NCBI RefSeq assembly: GCF_029607905.1
Contig: NZ_JAPHEH010000001.1
Span: 2,075,530 to 2,139,529 of the forward strand
Length of the DNA stretch: 64,000 bases
Source of the DNA: Thiovibrio frasassiensis
GTDB lineage: Bacteria; Desulfobacterota; Desulfobulbia; Desulfobulbales; Desulfurivibrionaceae
Reading direction: 5' to 3'
Shown: positions 39,867 through 48,500 of the stretch, piece after piece
Numbering within the stretch: position 1 is the stretch's first letter
Layout: each line of letters starts with the position of its first letter
Made by a program: the position numbers and the translations under genes
The notes under the pieces: generated by a model
The model's input: the letters and a program-made list of their open reading frames with translations, nothing else
Told to the model about the DNA's origin: nothing
Database searches by the model: none

Positions 39867-41504
39867 TCAGTCGGCGCCGCAGCGAAGGCGGGAAAGCGCC
39901 TCGGCAAAAACGAATCGGTCGTCATGTTCGCCGCTGTGGCAGCGAAGGCAGGTGTCCATGGTCGGTCGGCCTGCTTTGGCCACCGCCGGCTGCAGGGTAT
40001 GCGCACGGGCTGGGCCATGGCACGATTCGCAGCCGACCTGGCGCAGGTCATGGGCAAGGGCAAGCATTTCCTGTCCTGTCTGGGCGGCGGGGCCAGTGAT
40101 GTGGCAGGGTAGGCACTGCACATTGAACTGCTGCCCCTTTGCCTCCAAGGTGTCATAGGCCATGGCGTGTTGGGTGCCCCTCCATTTCGCAAACTGCGGG
40201 GCATGGCAGCCGGTGCAGGCGGTGCTCCCGGCGTAATTTCCCGAACTCCCTTTCTGGTTCTCGCCAGAACTGTCTGCGATTCTCGCTTTTGCCGCATTCT
40301 TGCCGATCCGGTTCACCTCGCTGGTGGTTGCATTCACGATGGCCCGAACCGCCGGGTTGTCCGGCAGCTCTTTCCGCATGGCCTCAAAGTGATGGCTGAA
40401 GGAAGAGAACTGGGCACCTTGAGCATTCCTGCTGTTCTCCTCCTTCGTGAGGCGGCATAGTTCCTGGTCCAGCCTTTCGCGTTGGGCGAGTAATTCCTCA
40501 TAGGCGGCGAGAACCTCGGCTTGACCCTTGAAGGCAAGTTTCGGATCTCCATGCTTGCGGTAGCGGTTTATCTGCCAACCCAGCCGATCCAACTCGTTTT
40601 TTTTGTCCAGCAGCAGATTCTTTGCCCCAGGATCTTCCCATTTTCTGCTGTGCCGGTTCCAGCGCACTTCCAGAATGCCGATGGATTTCCCCTGCTGTTC
40701 CACCTGGGTAATCAGGGTGTTGTTGACCCGTTCCGGTACCAGGTTGCCGGAGCCAGTTCCCGCTTGCACGATGAGTTGGATTTCCGGGTGCGTTTCCGCA
40801 ATTTTTCTGTTTATTGGCGCAGGAAGATTGGAGAGCAAAACCAGCATATCAGTTTGCCCTTTCAGCACGGCGATCTCCTTGGGCAGGACATCGTCCCAGG
40901 GGAGAATGACAGCATTGTCTTTTTGCGGCAAAATTGCATCAGGACCCGGGCCGGTGAGACCGATAACCCCGATCCTTATCCCACCCTTGCGGAGCACGAG
41001 GTGCGGTTTGAAATATGGCTTGGCTTGGCTACGGCTGACAAGGTTTGCGCTCAACCAGGGGAAATCCGATTTCTGCTGCAGGGAAAGGAGAAAGGCTAAG
41101 CCTGCGGCAAGGTCTTGTCTGGCAACGCCGACCGCAGCAAAAGACATCCTGTTGTAGGCCGAGACAATGCCCTGGGCCGTGGTGGTGAGCTGTTGCTGCT
41201 GGTCCGGCGGTATTTTTTCCTCCTTGAACAGCAGGGCGCCGCTGTCCAGGGCCAGCACTGCTTTTTTTCCTTTTCGCAATTCTTCAAGTTGCTGTGCTTT
41301 CTTGGGCAGACCGCCCAACTGGTTACTTTTTCAGCCGCACGGTTCGGTTTCACCTCTGACATCATTGGAGAAAAAGATTGTTATGTCGTGCAGATCCGCT
41401 GGCGGTTTGGGTGGGTTCGACTTTTTTTCCGCACCCCCCGCGGTGATGGCAGAGGTGAGTGCGATGAGAAGGGCGAGCAGGAGCAAAAAAAATGATTTGT
41501 TCAT
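39867..41504 (-). CDS. Predicted selenoprotein: exported 5'-nucleotidase-like, tetraheme c-type cytochrome (Sec at codon 58, UGA)
   Basis: Read through one in-frame UGA (41331-41333), this gene encodes 545 residues. A signal peptide (MNKSFFLLLLALLIALTSAI) is followed by a 5'-nucleotidase/metallophosphatase-like region: ITIFFSNDVRGETEPCG-U-KSNQLGGLPKKAQ, then AVLALDSGALLF and IRIGVIGLTGPG. Cys-containing relatives typically read EPCGC...GGLPRKA, so U58 replaces a family cysteine in a C-G-U pair. Catalytic metal ligands of true nucleotidases (D-x-H, GD) are not conserved. A coiled linker leads to four CxxCH heme sites: CTGCH 430, CLPCH 464, CESCH 492, CLRCH 519. The frame is kept on both sides of UGA and a SECIS-like hairpin follows. 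A periplasmic redox role is inferred. Confidence 0.8.
41302..41333 (-). promoter_or_regulatory. Predicted bacterial SECIS element with its UGA codon
   Basis: Counting the UGA as bases 1-3, bases 16-21 (UUGGGC) pair perfectly with 27-32 (GCCCAA) around the loop GGUCU (22-26). In E. coli fdhF, the reference SECIS, the loop bases G23 and U24 recognised by SelB lie at the same positions and the stretch GGUCUGC (22-28) is identical. The 18-base UGA-to-loop spacing lies in the accepted bacterial range. The bulged U17 of fdhF is paired here. Confidence 0.75.
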
Positions 41505-43093: not shown

Positions 43094-43894
43094 TTAGGCA
43101 AGCAAAACGGCAAGACGTTCTGCCAGTCGTTCCGCCGAAAAAATCAAGGATTCCAGATCGAGAAAATTGAGAACCTGACGATCGAAAAGAATCTTGACCT
43201 TTGGGGCAAAGCCGTCTTCCGGCTCAGCCTCCCAATAGACAAGATATTGGGGAATCTTGGGCAGCACAGGGATGATGCAGCCGAGCGTTGCCGAGAGAGT
43301 GGGAGCCTCAACGCCACCCAGGCGATGGCAGGCAGCGATGATTGTTGCAGCAGGAAGAGGGGAAAAGAGTTCGGCCAATCTCTTTTCGCAGTAAGTGGCG
43401 AGGGTCCGCACCTTTGAAATCGAGTTTGGCAGGGTTTCCAGGCCGATCCAGTCCTGGGTAGGGTCCACTCCCCCCTGGGAGTGGATATAGTTATAGAGGA
43501 GGATTTGATCCCTGGGATCATCCGGTACGTGCCCATCAAGGAGGATCCCTTCTCTGTTCAGGAGAACAGTCTGTCCCAGAAACGAAAAAGACAGGGTCTG
43601 ATTGTCCTTGCCGCAGAGGGTGGCACCCAATGGGGCGGCGATCCGGGTAAAGTCCAGGGTGGAAATCTTGCCTTTCAGGTATTCGATCAGGGCAAGATCG
43701 CGTTGCTCGGAAAGCTCCTCAAGGGCGGCCCCTTGTTGTTGCACAACGTTCAGGCCTGTGGTGTCAAGATAGGGACATTTGCCGAAGTCCTCTCCACTTT
43801 TGGCGACTGCCGCGGAAAAGGCAAGACAGCTGGGATAGCCACATTGTCCGCAATTGTTCTTTGGGGTGCGTTTGACAATCTCGATGGGAGTCAT
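43094..43894 (-). CDS. 4Fe-4S cluster and DUF3786 protein
   Basis: A 266-residue protein. The first 45 residues hold a corrinoid/CODH-type four-cysteine Fe-S motif (KNNCGQCGYPSCLAFSAAVA, then KCPYL). The remaining 200 residues match DUF3786 (DPRDQILLYNYIHSQGGVDP, DWIGLETLPNSISKVRTLAT). Such proteins are common in strict anaerobes, and the N-terminal motif resembles the Fe-S domain of the acetyl-CoA pathway corrinoid protein. The role is unknown. It starts 9 bp after the XXXCH-type gene and so ends the FHA-kinase-phosphatase operon. Confidence 0.75.
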   Translation of the reverse strand: MTPIEIVKRTPKNNCGQCGYPSCLAFSAAVAKSGEDFGKCPYLDTTGLNVVQQQGAALEELSEQRDLALIEYLKGKISTLDFTRIAAPLGATLCGKDNQTLSFSFLGQTVLLNREGILLDGHVPDDPRDQILLYNYIHSQGGVDPTQDWIGLETLPNSISKVRTLATYCEKRLAELFSPLPAATIIAACHRLGGVEAPTLSATLGCIIPVLPKIPQYLVYWEAEPEDGFAPKVKILFDRQVLNFLDLESLIFSAERLAERLAVLLA

Positions 43895-44504: not shown

Positions 44505-45272
44505 CTAGTAAAAAATTACCAGGGCGGTGATGTTGTCGCGTCCGCCTTGGTCGTTGGCTGCCTTGACCAGCGTTTCGCTGGCTTTTTCCGGGGAGGAGGC
44601 ATTGAGGAGGATCTGCTCGATGTGGGTGTGGTCAATCATATTCCATAACCCGTCGGAACAGAGCAGTACCCTGGTGCCAGGGAGCACAATGTTTTTGTGG
44701 TATTCCGGACCCTCCGGGGAGTTGAAGCCGATGGCCCTGGTAACCACATGGCGAGGAACCTGAATCTCTTTGTTGTTGGCATCGATTCTCTGGACGTACG
44801 TAACAGCGGTATGGTCCGTGGTGATCTGCTTCAGGACGCCCTTTTCGGAGAGATAACAGCGGGCATCCCCAACGTGGCAGGTGTGGAGGCGGTTTTCGTC
44901 AAGGAGGCAGGCGACCATGGTGCAGCCCATCCCTTTCATGGTCTCATCCGCGGAGGCCTTGTTCATTACAGCCTGATTGGCATGATGGAAGGCCTCCAAC
45001 ATACTCTGGTGGATCTTTTCATCGTTGCCCCGGATTTCCCGGATTTTTTCTTCAGAAAGAGATTCGAGCAGGGCTTCGATGGCCAACCGGCTGGCAATCT
45101 CGCCGGCATTATGGCCGCCCATGCCATCGGCGACCACGAAAAGCCGCCGGTTGCGGAGGGAGCAGAAGCTGTCTTCGTTATGGCCGCGGACCATTCCCGT
45201 ATCCGTGCGGCCATAAAAGGAAATGGCTCTGGGCTTGCTTTTACAGAGTTTCTTTAAGAACCCGAAGATCAT
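44505..45272 (-). CDS. PP2C-family Ser/Thr protein phosphatase
   Basis: A 255-residue metal-dependent phosphatase. The family metal and catalytic motifs are in order: GRTDTGMVRGHNEDSF, LFVVADGMGGHNAGEIAS, GCTMVACLLDENRLHTCHVG, VGDARCYLSEKG, LLCSDGLWNMI and GGRDNITALVIFY. The ATG at 45272 was chosen because the family begins soon after (RAISFYGRTDTG); a longer frame enters the kinase gene. It lies just downstream of the kinase gene, which ends at 45304. The pair probably sets the phosphorylation state of shared targets. Confidence 0.93.
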   Translation of the reverse strand: MIFGFLKKLCKSKPRAISFYGRTDTGMVRGHNEDSFCSLRNRRLFVVADGMGGHNAGEIASRLAIEALLESLSEEKIREIRGNDEKIHQSMLEAFHHANQAVMNKASADETMKGMGCTMVACLLDENRLHTCHVGDARCYLSEKGVLKQITTDHTAVTYVQRIDANNKEIQVPRHVVTRAIGFNSPEGPEYHKNIVLPGTRVLLCSDGLWNMIDHTHIEQILLNASSPEKASETLVKAANDQGGRDNITALVIFY

Positions 45273-45303
45273 GAATATTCCATTGTTTTCCCGAGCGGGG
45301 AAA

Positions 45304-47742
45304 TTACTCAAAGTGCAGTTGGTAAATGACCATCCAGAAGACAATAGCCCCATCTTTTCTTCCGGAAAGAAAGGTGTGGGGCTTGGGTCCGTGCGCTAAA
45401 CTGTAAATGCCGTCGCCTCTGCCGTCAAGAATGGCCAGGCATTCACCGCTGCTCGCATCCCAAAGCTTGATGATGTCATCTTCACAGCCGGAGATCAGGG
45501 TCTGATTGTCCTGGAGAAACAAGGCGGAAGAAATGGTTTCGTCATGGGCCTTGATCGATTTGAGGCAGCGTCCGGTCGTGTGTTCCCAAACCTTAAGGTG
45601 CCGGTCGGTGCTGGCAGAGATAAAGCGCTGGCCATCAAGGGAATTTGCCAGAGAGATGACCGGCATGGCATGCGCTTCGATAATTCTCGTGCATTCTTTG
45701 CCGTTGGCGTCCCAGAAACGCACAGAGCCGTCTTCGCTTCCTGTTACCAGGCTCAACCCTTTACCGGTATAGATAATGGCGCGGACAGAGCCGCCTTCCT
45801 GAATGGAGGTGCTCATTTCCGGGCCGGTGCCAAGTTTGCGGATCTTCATGATCCCGTCTGCACCACCGGAGGCGAGGTGGCGGCCATTTTCGTTAAAGGC
45901 CAAGGCGTGCACCTGGCCTTTATGGGCAGTTTCTTTTGATTCCTGCTTGCCGGTCTTTGTGGAAAAAAGGCAGACGGTTCCATCCTGAGCGCCTACGGCG
46001 ATATATTTTCCCATTGGGCAGATGGCCAACGCGGTGATGGCACTGCCGCCTTTTCCCAAGACAAAGCTTTGGTGGGCGGTAGCGCCCAGGTCGTGAAGGA
46101 TTATTTTTCCTTCGGGACCGGCGGCAACAAATTTCTTCGTGTTGGGGATATGGGCAAGATGCTTTGTCGGCCCTTCATCTCCTTTTAGGGTCAGAAAGCG
46201 CTGCACTCCCAGCACTTTCTTTTTGGTGCCAACCAGCAAGAGCCGGTGATAGACCATGTTGAAAATTTTGTCTTTTTTGAAGCTGCTGTTTTTCCATGCG
46301 GTCATCAGGATATCATGGCAGGGGCCATAGCGTTTATTATCCAAATGGTCGAGGATGTTGCGCTGTACCGAGAGGTGGAGTTGTCCTTCCCGGAATATTT
46401 CTAGAGAGTTTTTCGGAAGGCACAGGCGAAATTCCGGGAACTGCTGTTTGTTTGGTTCGACCTTGTCGGAAACCATGCTGCGTTTTACCGCCGCCTCCAT
46501 TTCGGTGAGCCAGGGCGCTGTGGCTCCGCGTTTCTTGGCGGTTTCGATCTGGCGAATAATTTTTGTCGCCTTTGTCCCCGAGCGCCAATTGAGCAGAATC
46601 ATATTGTATACAGCTTCGGGGAGCATCTCGTTGATTTCAAGGGTTTTGCTCAGGCAGGCGGAAGCCTCCTTGCTTTCCCCCAGCTCAAACAGGGAAACAG
46701 CCCTGTTGTTGAGACTGTCCGCTCTGAGGTCGATATTGCTGAGTTCGGCATAGGGGCAGGCGGTGTTAAAGGCGGCGGTATATGCTTCGTTCAAGGCCGT
46801 GCGCATTTCGGCGAAATTTTGATAACGCTCTTCAGGGTTGTAGGCCACGCTTTTGCGTAAAATATCTTTAAGCACTTTCGGGAATTTGACGTCCGGCGTC
46901 ACCGGAGTCGGGGTGGGTATTTTATGCTTCAGCGCATTGTTGATAAAGGGCTTCTTGCCGCAGAGCATCATCCAGAGGCAGAGGCCGAATGAAAAAATAT
47001 CCGTTCGCAGGTCAACAGTATGGGCATTGCGCAACTGTTCCGGGGAGGCGTAGCCCAGGGTGCCCCGGAACCCGATGGTTGCCTCGTGATCCGTAGTGCT
47101 CGCGCCGGGAACCTGGCCATCGCCTGTTTCGATCTCTCCATGGGCAAGGAGGATGCCGAAATCGGTTATTTTTAACAAGGAGTTTTTGGTGATCAGGACA
47201 TTCTGGGGTTTGATGTCGCGATGGATGATCCCGCGCTGGTGGGTAAATTCCATGCCGTGACAGAACTGGATGGCCAGTGACAAGGCGGTCCGGAGGTTTC
47301 GGCACCGGCCTGCCTTGATCCAGTCGGAAAGATTTCCGCCATCGATGAATTCAATGAAAAGATAGGGGATTTTGTTGACGGAAAGCACATAGAAACAGGA
47401 CGCGACATTGGGATGCATGCCCATCCTGACCCAGCTGTTGGCCTCCTTGAGTATGCGGCGCATGCCTTCACGGTCGGCAAGGACTTCCGGCCGGGGGGCT
47501 TTAATGGCGACCTTTATTTTCCAGCCGAGATGTTCGGAAATGTAAACATTGCCCATGGAGCCAGACATAACCTGTTCGATATGATACCGGTTAAGAATGG
47601 TGTCTCCAGGGGCCCAGACAGGCACCTGCGGGATTTCAGGAGAGAGTTTGGGTTCGATGGCTCTGGCGGACGGCTCCCCTGGGATGCCGGAAGAGGCGCC
47701 TTTTTTCCACTTGTTTATTTGGTCAAAGAGTCTCGCAAGCAT
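45304..47742 (-). CDS. Ser/Thr protein kinase with TPR-like linker and WD40 beta-propeller
   Basis: A Hanks-type kinase of about 812 residues. The kinase domain covers about 50-320: GSMGNVYISEHLG (Gly loop), VAIKAPRPE (ATP lysine), IIHRDIKPQNVLI (catalytic Asp) and ITDFGILLAHG (metal Asp), then RGTLGYASPEQL. A helical TPR-like stretch (about 350-430, ADSLNNRAVSLFELGESKEA) leads to at least six WD40 repeats to the end (VHALAFNENGRHLASGGADG; ISSALFLQDNQTLISGCEDD). There is no membrane helix, so the sensor is likely cytoplasmic. It starts 8 bp after the FHA gene with no clear ribosome site, which suggests translational coupling. Confidence 0.92.
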   Translation of the reverse strand: MLARLFDQINKWKKGASSGIPGEPSARAIEPKLSPEIPQVPVWAPGDTILNRYHIEQVMSGSMGNVYISEHLGWKIKVAIKAPRPEVLADREGMRRILKEANSWVRMGMHPNVASCFYVLSVNKIPYLFIEFIDGGNLSDWIKAGRCRNLRTALSLAIQFCHGMEFTHQRGIIHRDIKPQNVLITKNSLLKITDFGILLAHGEIETGDGQVPGASTTDHEATIGFRGTLGYASPEQLRNAHTVDLRTDIFSFGLCLWMMLCGKKPFINNALKHKIPTPTPVTPDVKFPKVLKDILRKSVAYNPEERYQNFAEMRTALNEAYTAAFNTACPYAELSNIDLRADSLNNRAVSLFELGESKEASACLSKTLEINEMLPEAVYNMILLNWRSGTKATKIIRQIETAKKRGATAPWLTEMEAAVKRSMVSDKVEPNKQQFPEFRLCLPKNSLEIFREGQLHLSVQRNILDHLDNKRYGPCHDILMTAWKNSSFKKDKIFNMVYHRLLLVGTKKKVLGVQRFLTLKGDEGPTKHLAHIPNTKKFVAAGPEGKIILHDLGATAHQSFVLGKGGSAITALAICPMGKYIAVGAQDGTVCLFSTKTGKQESKETAHKGQVHALAFNENGRHLASGGADGIMKIRKLGTGPEMSTSIQEGGSVRAIIYTGKGLSLVTGSEDGSVRFWDANGKECTRIIEAHAMPVISLANSLDGQRFISASTDRHLKVWEHTTGRCLKSIKAHDETISSALFLQDNQTLISGCEDDIIKLWDASSGECLAILDGRGDGIYSLAHGPKPHTFLSGRKDGAIVFWMVIYQLHFE

Positions 47743-47750
47743 CCGGGAGG

Positions 47751-48500
47751 TTAATTGAACCTGATTTTCACACTCTTGATCTGGATGATATCGCCTTTGC
47801 GTAGGAGGCGTTCCTCTTTGATGATGACATCGTTGAGTTTGGTATTCGCCCATGAACGCTGGGGTACAATGTAATATTTGTCTTTTTTGCTCACCACATA
47901 GCACTGGGTCTTGCTGACAAGCCAGCCGGGAATTAGTATGTCGCAGGAAGGATCCTTGCCGATTTTTGCGCTGCTCTTCCCGTCAAGGGAGAGCGTGCTT
48001 GGCGAAGCGTTGCCTTCAATTACCGTGAGTCTGTAAGTCTCGTTAGAGGAAGACGGCATGGCTTGACTGGGCTGGGTGAGGTTCTGTTGTCGGGGAGAGC
48101 TGACAAAGACAGTTGCTTCGTCGTCAATATCCATGGCTGTGGCGTATGATGAAGAAGTATGCTGTTCATCTGCCGCAGCCTGAAGCAAACGAAATTTTCC
48201 GATGAAAATGACGTCTTTATTTGTTACCGGGACCTTTGAGGCAATCTTTTTTCCATTGACGGTGGTGCCGTTGGTGCTTTTCAAATCGGCCAGGTAATGT
48301 CGGCCATCGCGAAGCTCAAGGGAAGAGTGGTGTCTGGATATGGCCGTGTTATCGATGGTCACATCCGCATCGGGGCTGCGGCCAATAATGAGCTTGCTGC
48401 CTTCATGGGTCGTAAAGCTTGTGATAACCCGGTCATTCAGCATAATGGTCCAATCTGATTTGGTGTAATCTTCGAGATTGATCGTTCCGTCCTGCATCAT
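47751..48500 (-). CDS. Double-FHA-domain protein
   Basis: A 249-residue phosphothreonine-recognition protein. FHA domain 1 spans about 25-105 (SKLIIGRSPDADVTIDN, AISRHHSSLELRDGRHYLAD, STNGTTVNGKKI) with the Arg, Ser and Asn residues that contact pThr. FHA 2 spans about 160-245 (SAKIGKDPSCDILIPG, KTQCYVVSKKDKYYI) and lacks the usual GR...SRxH residues. A disordered Ser/Gln-rich linker holds threonines that could be phosphorylated by the kinase next door. First gene of the operon FHA-kinase-PP2C-XXXCH-DUF3786. Confidence 0.88.
   Translation of the reverse strand: MMQDGTINLEDYTKSDWTIMLNDRVITSFTTHEGSKLIIGRSPDADVTIDNTAISRHHSSLELRDGRHYLADLKSTNGTTVNGKKIASKVPVTNKDVIFIGKFRLLQAAADEQHTSSSYATAMDIDDEATVFVSSPRQQNLTQPSQAMPSSSNETYRLTVIEGNASPSTLSLDGKSSAKIGKDPSCDILIPGWLVSKTQCYVVSKKDKYYIVPQRSWANTKLNDVIIKEERLLRKGDIIQIKSVKIRFN

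Follow-up and report, generated by a model that had tools for sequence, protein, structure and literature searches.

The window, by which we mean the whole stretch of 64,000 nucleotides from Thiovibrio frasassiensis that was analysed, carries on its minus strand a reading frame that opens with an ATG at 41504 and is divided by a single in-frame TGA at codon 58 (Table 1). Read-through of this codon yields a product of 545 residues, including NDVRGETEPCG-U-KSNQLGGLPKK and four CxxCH sites (residues 430–434, 464–468, 492–496 and 519–523). The first-pass annotation had taken the two frames split by one TGA to make one coherent protein. Its coordinates and its description of the gene hold on re-reading the minus strand.

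Table 1. Features of the locus, in positions of the window.
Feature	Position	Strand	Basis
Predicted UshA-like PCGU selenoprotein CDS, Sec58, 545 residues	39867..41504	-	NF041198 match, residues 31-533
Terminal stop, also TGA	39867-39869	-	sequence reading
Probable signal peptide, ~residues 1-25, hydrophobic stretch FFLLLLALLIALTSAITA	41430..41504	-	read by eye from sequence
In-frame UGA, assigned as Sec58 of the P-C-G-U motif	41331..41333	-	homologue TGA conservation; Cys in distant forms
Cys56, putative partner of Sec58	41337-41339	-	P-C-G-U motif
SECIS-like hairpin, 6-bp stem UUGGGC/GCCCAA, loop GGUCU (41308-41312)	41302..41318	-	pair counts on homologues
Metallophosphatase (UshA / 5′-nucleotidase)-like domain, ~residues 40-290, most metal ligands replaced	40635..41387	-	3ivd profile match
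Cytochrome c554-like tetraheme domain, ~residues 424-529	39918..40235	-	PF13435, E 4.2e-13

The gene comes after rarA and faces dnaK-grpE both in the window and in its nearest relatives. The gene neighbours (rarA, dnaK-grpE, DUF3786, protein kinase and PP2C) give no hint of a substrate; rarA and dnaK-grpE are housekeeping genes. Elsewhere in the window, a minus-strand gene at 45307–47904 encodes a fusion of a protein kinase domain with WD40 repeats. A PP2C phosphatase (44508–45353) lies next to it and forms with it a signalling cluster, and a DUF3786/Fe-S protein (43097–43894) is found beside this cluster.

The protein is not new: its family has already been catalogued and has been known since 2008. 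It scores 629.1 bits against the NCBIfam entry NF041198 (UshA_like_PCGU, "UshA-like (seleno)protein"), whose cut-off is 275, and residues 31–533 align with positions 14–518 of the 519 in the profile, a span that takes in the PCGU domain as well as the heme domain. The P-C-G-U (CxU) motif arises by the in-frame UGA, and the heme domain is C-terminal. The same profile matches every member of alignment A1 (28/28). Since the tetraheme part lies inside the profile, the fusion of an UshA-like domain to a tetraheme domain is not new either. As 'COG0737, UshA-like, CxU', the family was described from the Global Ocean Sampling data, in which it had 76 Sec and 92 Cys sequences (PMC2398784); it has since appeared as the table row UshA-like, CxU (PMC9312934, 2022), and NF041198 has been cited by name (PMC13188914, 2026). 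No difference of kind from this family was found, the window gene being another sequence only. We found no published biochemistry or experiment for the UshA-like PCGU family, and UshA and cytochromes are not mentioned in Kivenson et al. 2021.

A related UshA-like domain occurs in NF049981, UshA-like (seleno)protein family 2, a listed selenoprotein family. However, the window protein reaches 36.9 bits against the NF049981 cut-off of 140, and the motif of NF049981 is CxxU, whereas that of the window is CxU (PMC13188914). The domain is also homologous to that of UshA and the 5′-nucleotidases and of the thiosulfohydrolase SoxB, but the window protein lies far under the cut-offs of these families, has apparently lost most of the metal ligands and contains the PCGU loop. 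The C-terminal part resembles cytochrome c554 of Nitrosomonas (1bvb) and related multiheme cytochromes, as seen from the PF13435 match and from the NF041198 profile against 1bvb (E 8.1e-20), yet in the window protein this domain is C-terminal and joined to the UshA-like domain.

The machinery for selenocysteine is encoded in the same genome. A tRNA-Sec of 72.5 bits, above the family cut-off, was called by ARAGORN as tRNA-SeC with anticodon tca (UCA), and SelA, SelB and SelD were all found, each over its family cut-off. The selenoprotein proposed in the first-pass annotation thus does not fail for lack of selA, selB, selC or selD. The SelD gene (L029) has an in-frame TGA of its own at roughly codon 110 of the open frame, in the motif AAGUAAKL, and SelD of this genome is itself predicted to be a selenoprotein. 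Among the 42 genomes with or near the family, tRNA-Sec exceeds the cut-off in 38, and its absence in the remaining four says little because these are incomplete or fragmented drafts. Two tRNA-Sec matches above the cut-off are seen in genomes G376, G357, G088, G319, G337 and G294.

A hairpin lies just downstream of the UGA. With the U of UGA numbered 1, positions 16–21 (UUGGGC) pair with positions 27–32 (GCCCAA), G23 and U24 stand within the GGUCU loop, and U17 is paired. The hairpin noted earlier, with this loop and G and U at positions 23–24, was confirmed at 41318–41302. It differs from the hairpin of E. coli fdhF, to which it was likened, in that U17 is paired here and not bulged. Two groups of homologues can be told apart by loop size, one with 5 bases and the other with 6. 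The proportions of paired cells are 96.9% and 94.4% in the two groups, and four cells are altered on both sides in each, as compensatory changes. When the stem partner was slid as a control, pairing reached only 26–60% and 14–53%. The second Gly codon of LGG, which occupies loop positions 22–24, is GGT in 35 of the 41 homologous genes (the window gene and genes of other genomes, which are kin to each other, so that counts over homologues throughout are not counts of independent events); further down the same 41 genes, GGT is used for 127 of 828 Gly codons (15%). Folding energy alone was ordinary and uninformative for the hairpin (z = 0.00). A hairpin immediately downstream of the UGA with a conserved loop G-U, as found here, is expected of a bacterial selenoprotein.

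Alternatively, UGA58 could be a true stop, in which case the downstream frame would be the remnant of a pseudogene or encode a heme protein of its own. Mechanical ORF calling does divide the gene, and its terminal stop is likewise TGA. Nevertheless, codon 58 is TGA in 40 of the 41 homologous genes, window included, within the motif [P/A]CGU, and the homologues with this split at the identical place come from several families and conserve both halves. There are also Cys forms whose frame is uninterrupted, and the curated family NF041198 spans codon 58. By this conservation the true stop is already refuted for the NF041198 family, and we give it a very slim chance. A sequencing error, with TGC or TGT in place of TGA, is excluded because independent genomes share the TGA. 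In more distant CxxCH-bearing homologues (for instance, L062, L063, L065 and L066), CGC replaces CGU, and therefore the position exchanges with Cys. The earlier comparison with Cys forms of the motif was right, and the homologues, with Sec in close forms and Cys in distant ones, offer no refutation of the Sec reading. A general change of code, by which UGA would specify another amino acid such as Trp, found no support and is more improbable still: the gene's own terminal stop is TGA, the Sec-type tRNA with anticodon UCA is present, and Cys, not Trp, stands at codon 58 in distant homologues. Judged from the homologues, the Sec machinery and the hairpin, UGA58 codes for selenocysteine and the gene is a real selenoprotein gene.

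The sole exception among the 41 genes is L049 (G111:C168, match 34–1512), in which codon 58 is CGA (Arg) and PCGU has become PSGR, Cys being replaced by Ser together with the replacement of Sec by Arg. Its hairpin is reduced to 3 of 6 pairs, the four heme sites (CxxCH) are kept, and its genome retains tRNA-Sec. The joint loss, a single case in a draft genome, is consistent with Cys and Sec working as a pair. Distant heme-less UshA-like paralogues (L068, L069, L071, L073, L074 and L077) have other Cys motifs at the place of the PCGU loop, in a variable Cys-rich loop such as EPCSTCPEG or ESGCCPETG.

The two-metal site of UshA is formed by the ligand set DxH, GD, GNHE, H and GHxH. The NF041198 profile matches the 5′-nucleotidase structure 3ivd (E 1.4e-30), and when ligand columns are assigned by sequence through this alignment, the window protein keeps Asp48 only; the other expected-ligand columns hold Arg50, Ala90, Arg129, Asn226, Gly249 and Gly251. 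None of the 28 aligned members has the Asn or the His of GNHE, and only 2 of them keep the His of DxH. By alignment, the two-metal ligand set of a 5′-nucleotidase or UshA is thus not present in the window protein. The first-pass description of a 5′-nucleotidase-like domain holds by homology only, because most of the metal ligands are missing. A protein still active as a metallophosphatase or nucleotidase, with a structural or side role for Sec, would accord with the clear domain homology to 5′-nucleotidases and SoxB, but a site reduced to Asp48 and a GNHE pair missing from all aligned members make it unlikely. Rather, the UshA-like domain is probably no phosphatase, since most of the two-metal-binding residues have been lost, and the former metal site is inferred to be non-functional. 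In the alignment, the PCGU loop comes directly after the strand bearing the first metal ligands. Structure prediction with 11 sequences gave a mean pLDDT of 53.5, and values under 50 for the PCGU and heme regions, which is too low to use; as read from the alignment, Sec58 may lie near both the former metal site and the hemes.

The Sec-bearing members L051, L054 and L059 end before the heme domain. Therefore, neither the heme tail nor electron transfer to fused hemes is essential to the UshA-like domain. Like the window gene, L051 and L054 adjoin a rarA-like gene, and the heme tail has been gained or lost at this conserved rarA-side site.

The best explanation as a whole, which we consider highly probable, is an exported NF041198 selenoprotein in which UGA58 is read as Sec and Cys and Sec form a probable redox site. 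SelB and tRNA-Sec would read UGA58 as selenocysteine, aided by the downstream hairpin, after which the protein would be exported and the four c-type hemes attached. The Cys56-Gly-Sec58 motif is probably the active site. Its selenol/thiol pair may react with an extracytoplasmic substrate and trade electrons with the tetraheme domain; for redox catalysis by Cys56-Gly-Sec58 in this form, the chances seem about even. The likeliest reading of the arrangement is an extracytoplasmic Cys-Sec redox site that would be wired to four hemes, and the unusual redox design suggested in the first-pass annotation is a fair proposal. More tentatively, a retired metallophosphatase site may have been replaced by a Cys-Gly-Sec centre wired to the fused tetraheme domain, giving a new kind of extracytoplasmic seleno-oxidoreductase, perhaps for a sulfur- or selenium-containing substrate; this we hold to be possible with some doubt.

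Our analysis adds to the known family the apparent loss, by alignment, of most UshA metal ligands, the joint disappearance of Cys and Sec in the sole Sec-less gene, and the finding that rarA-adjacent homologues can lack hemes. The gene is hard to annotate, as gene finders cut or truncate it at the UGA, and the call made from the raw sequence was correct. The NF041198 family is widespread in the phylum of the organism. A clean member of it in a genome of three contigs is a usable target for exploring the role of the Cys-Sec motif in what appears to be a metal-free UshA-like domain.
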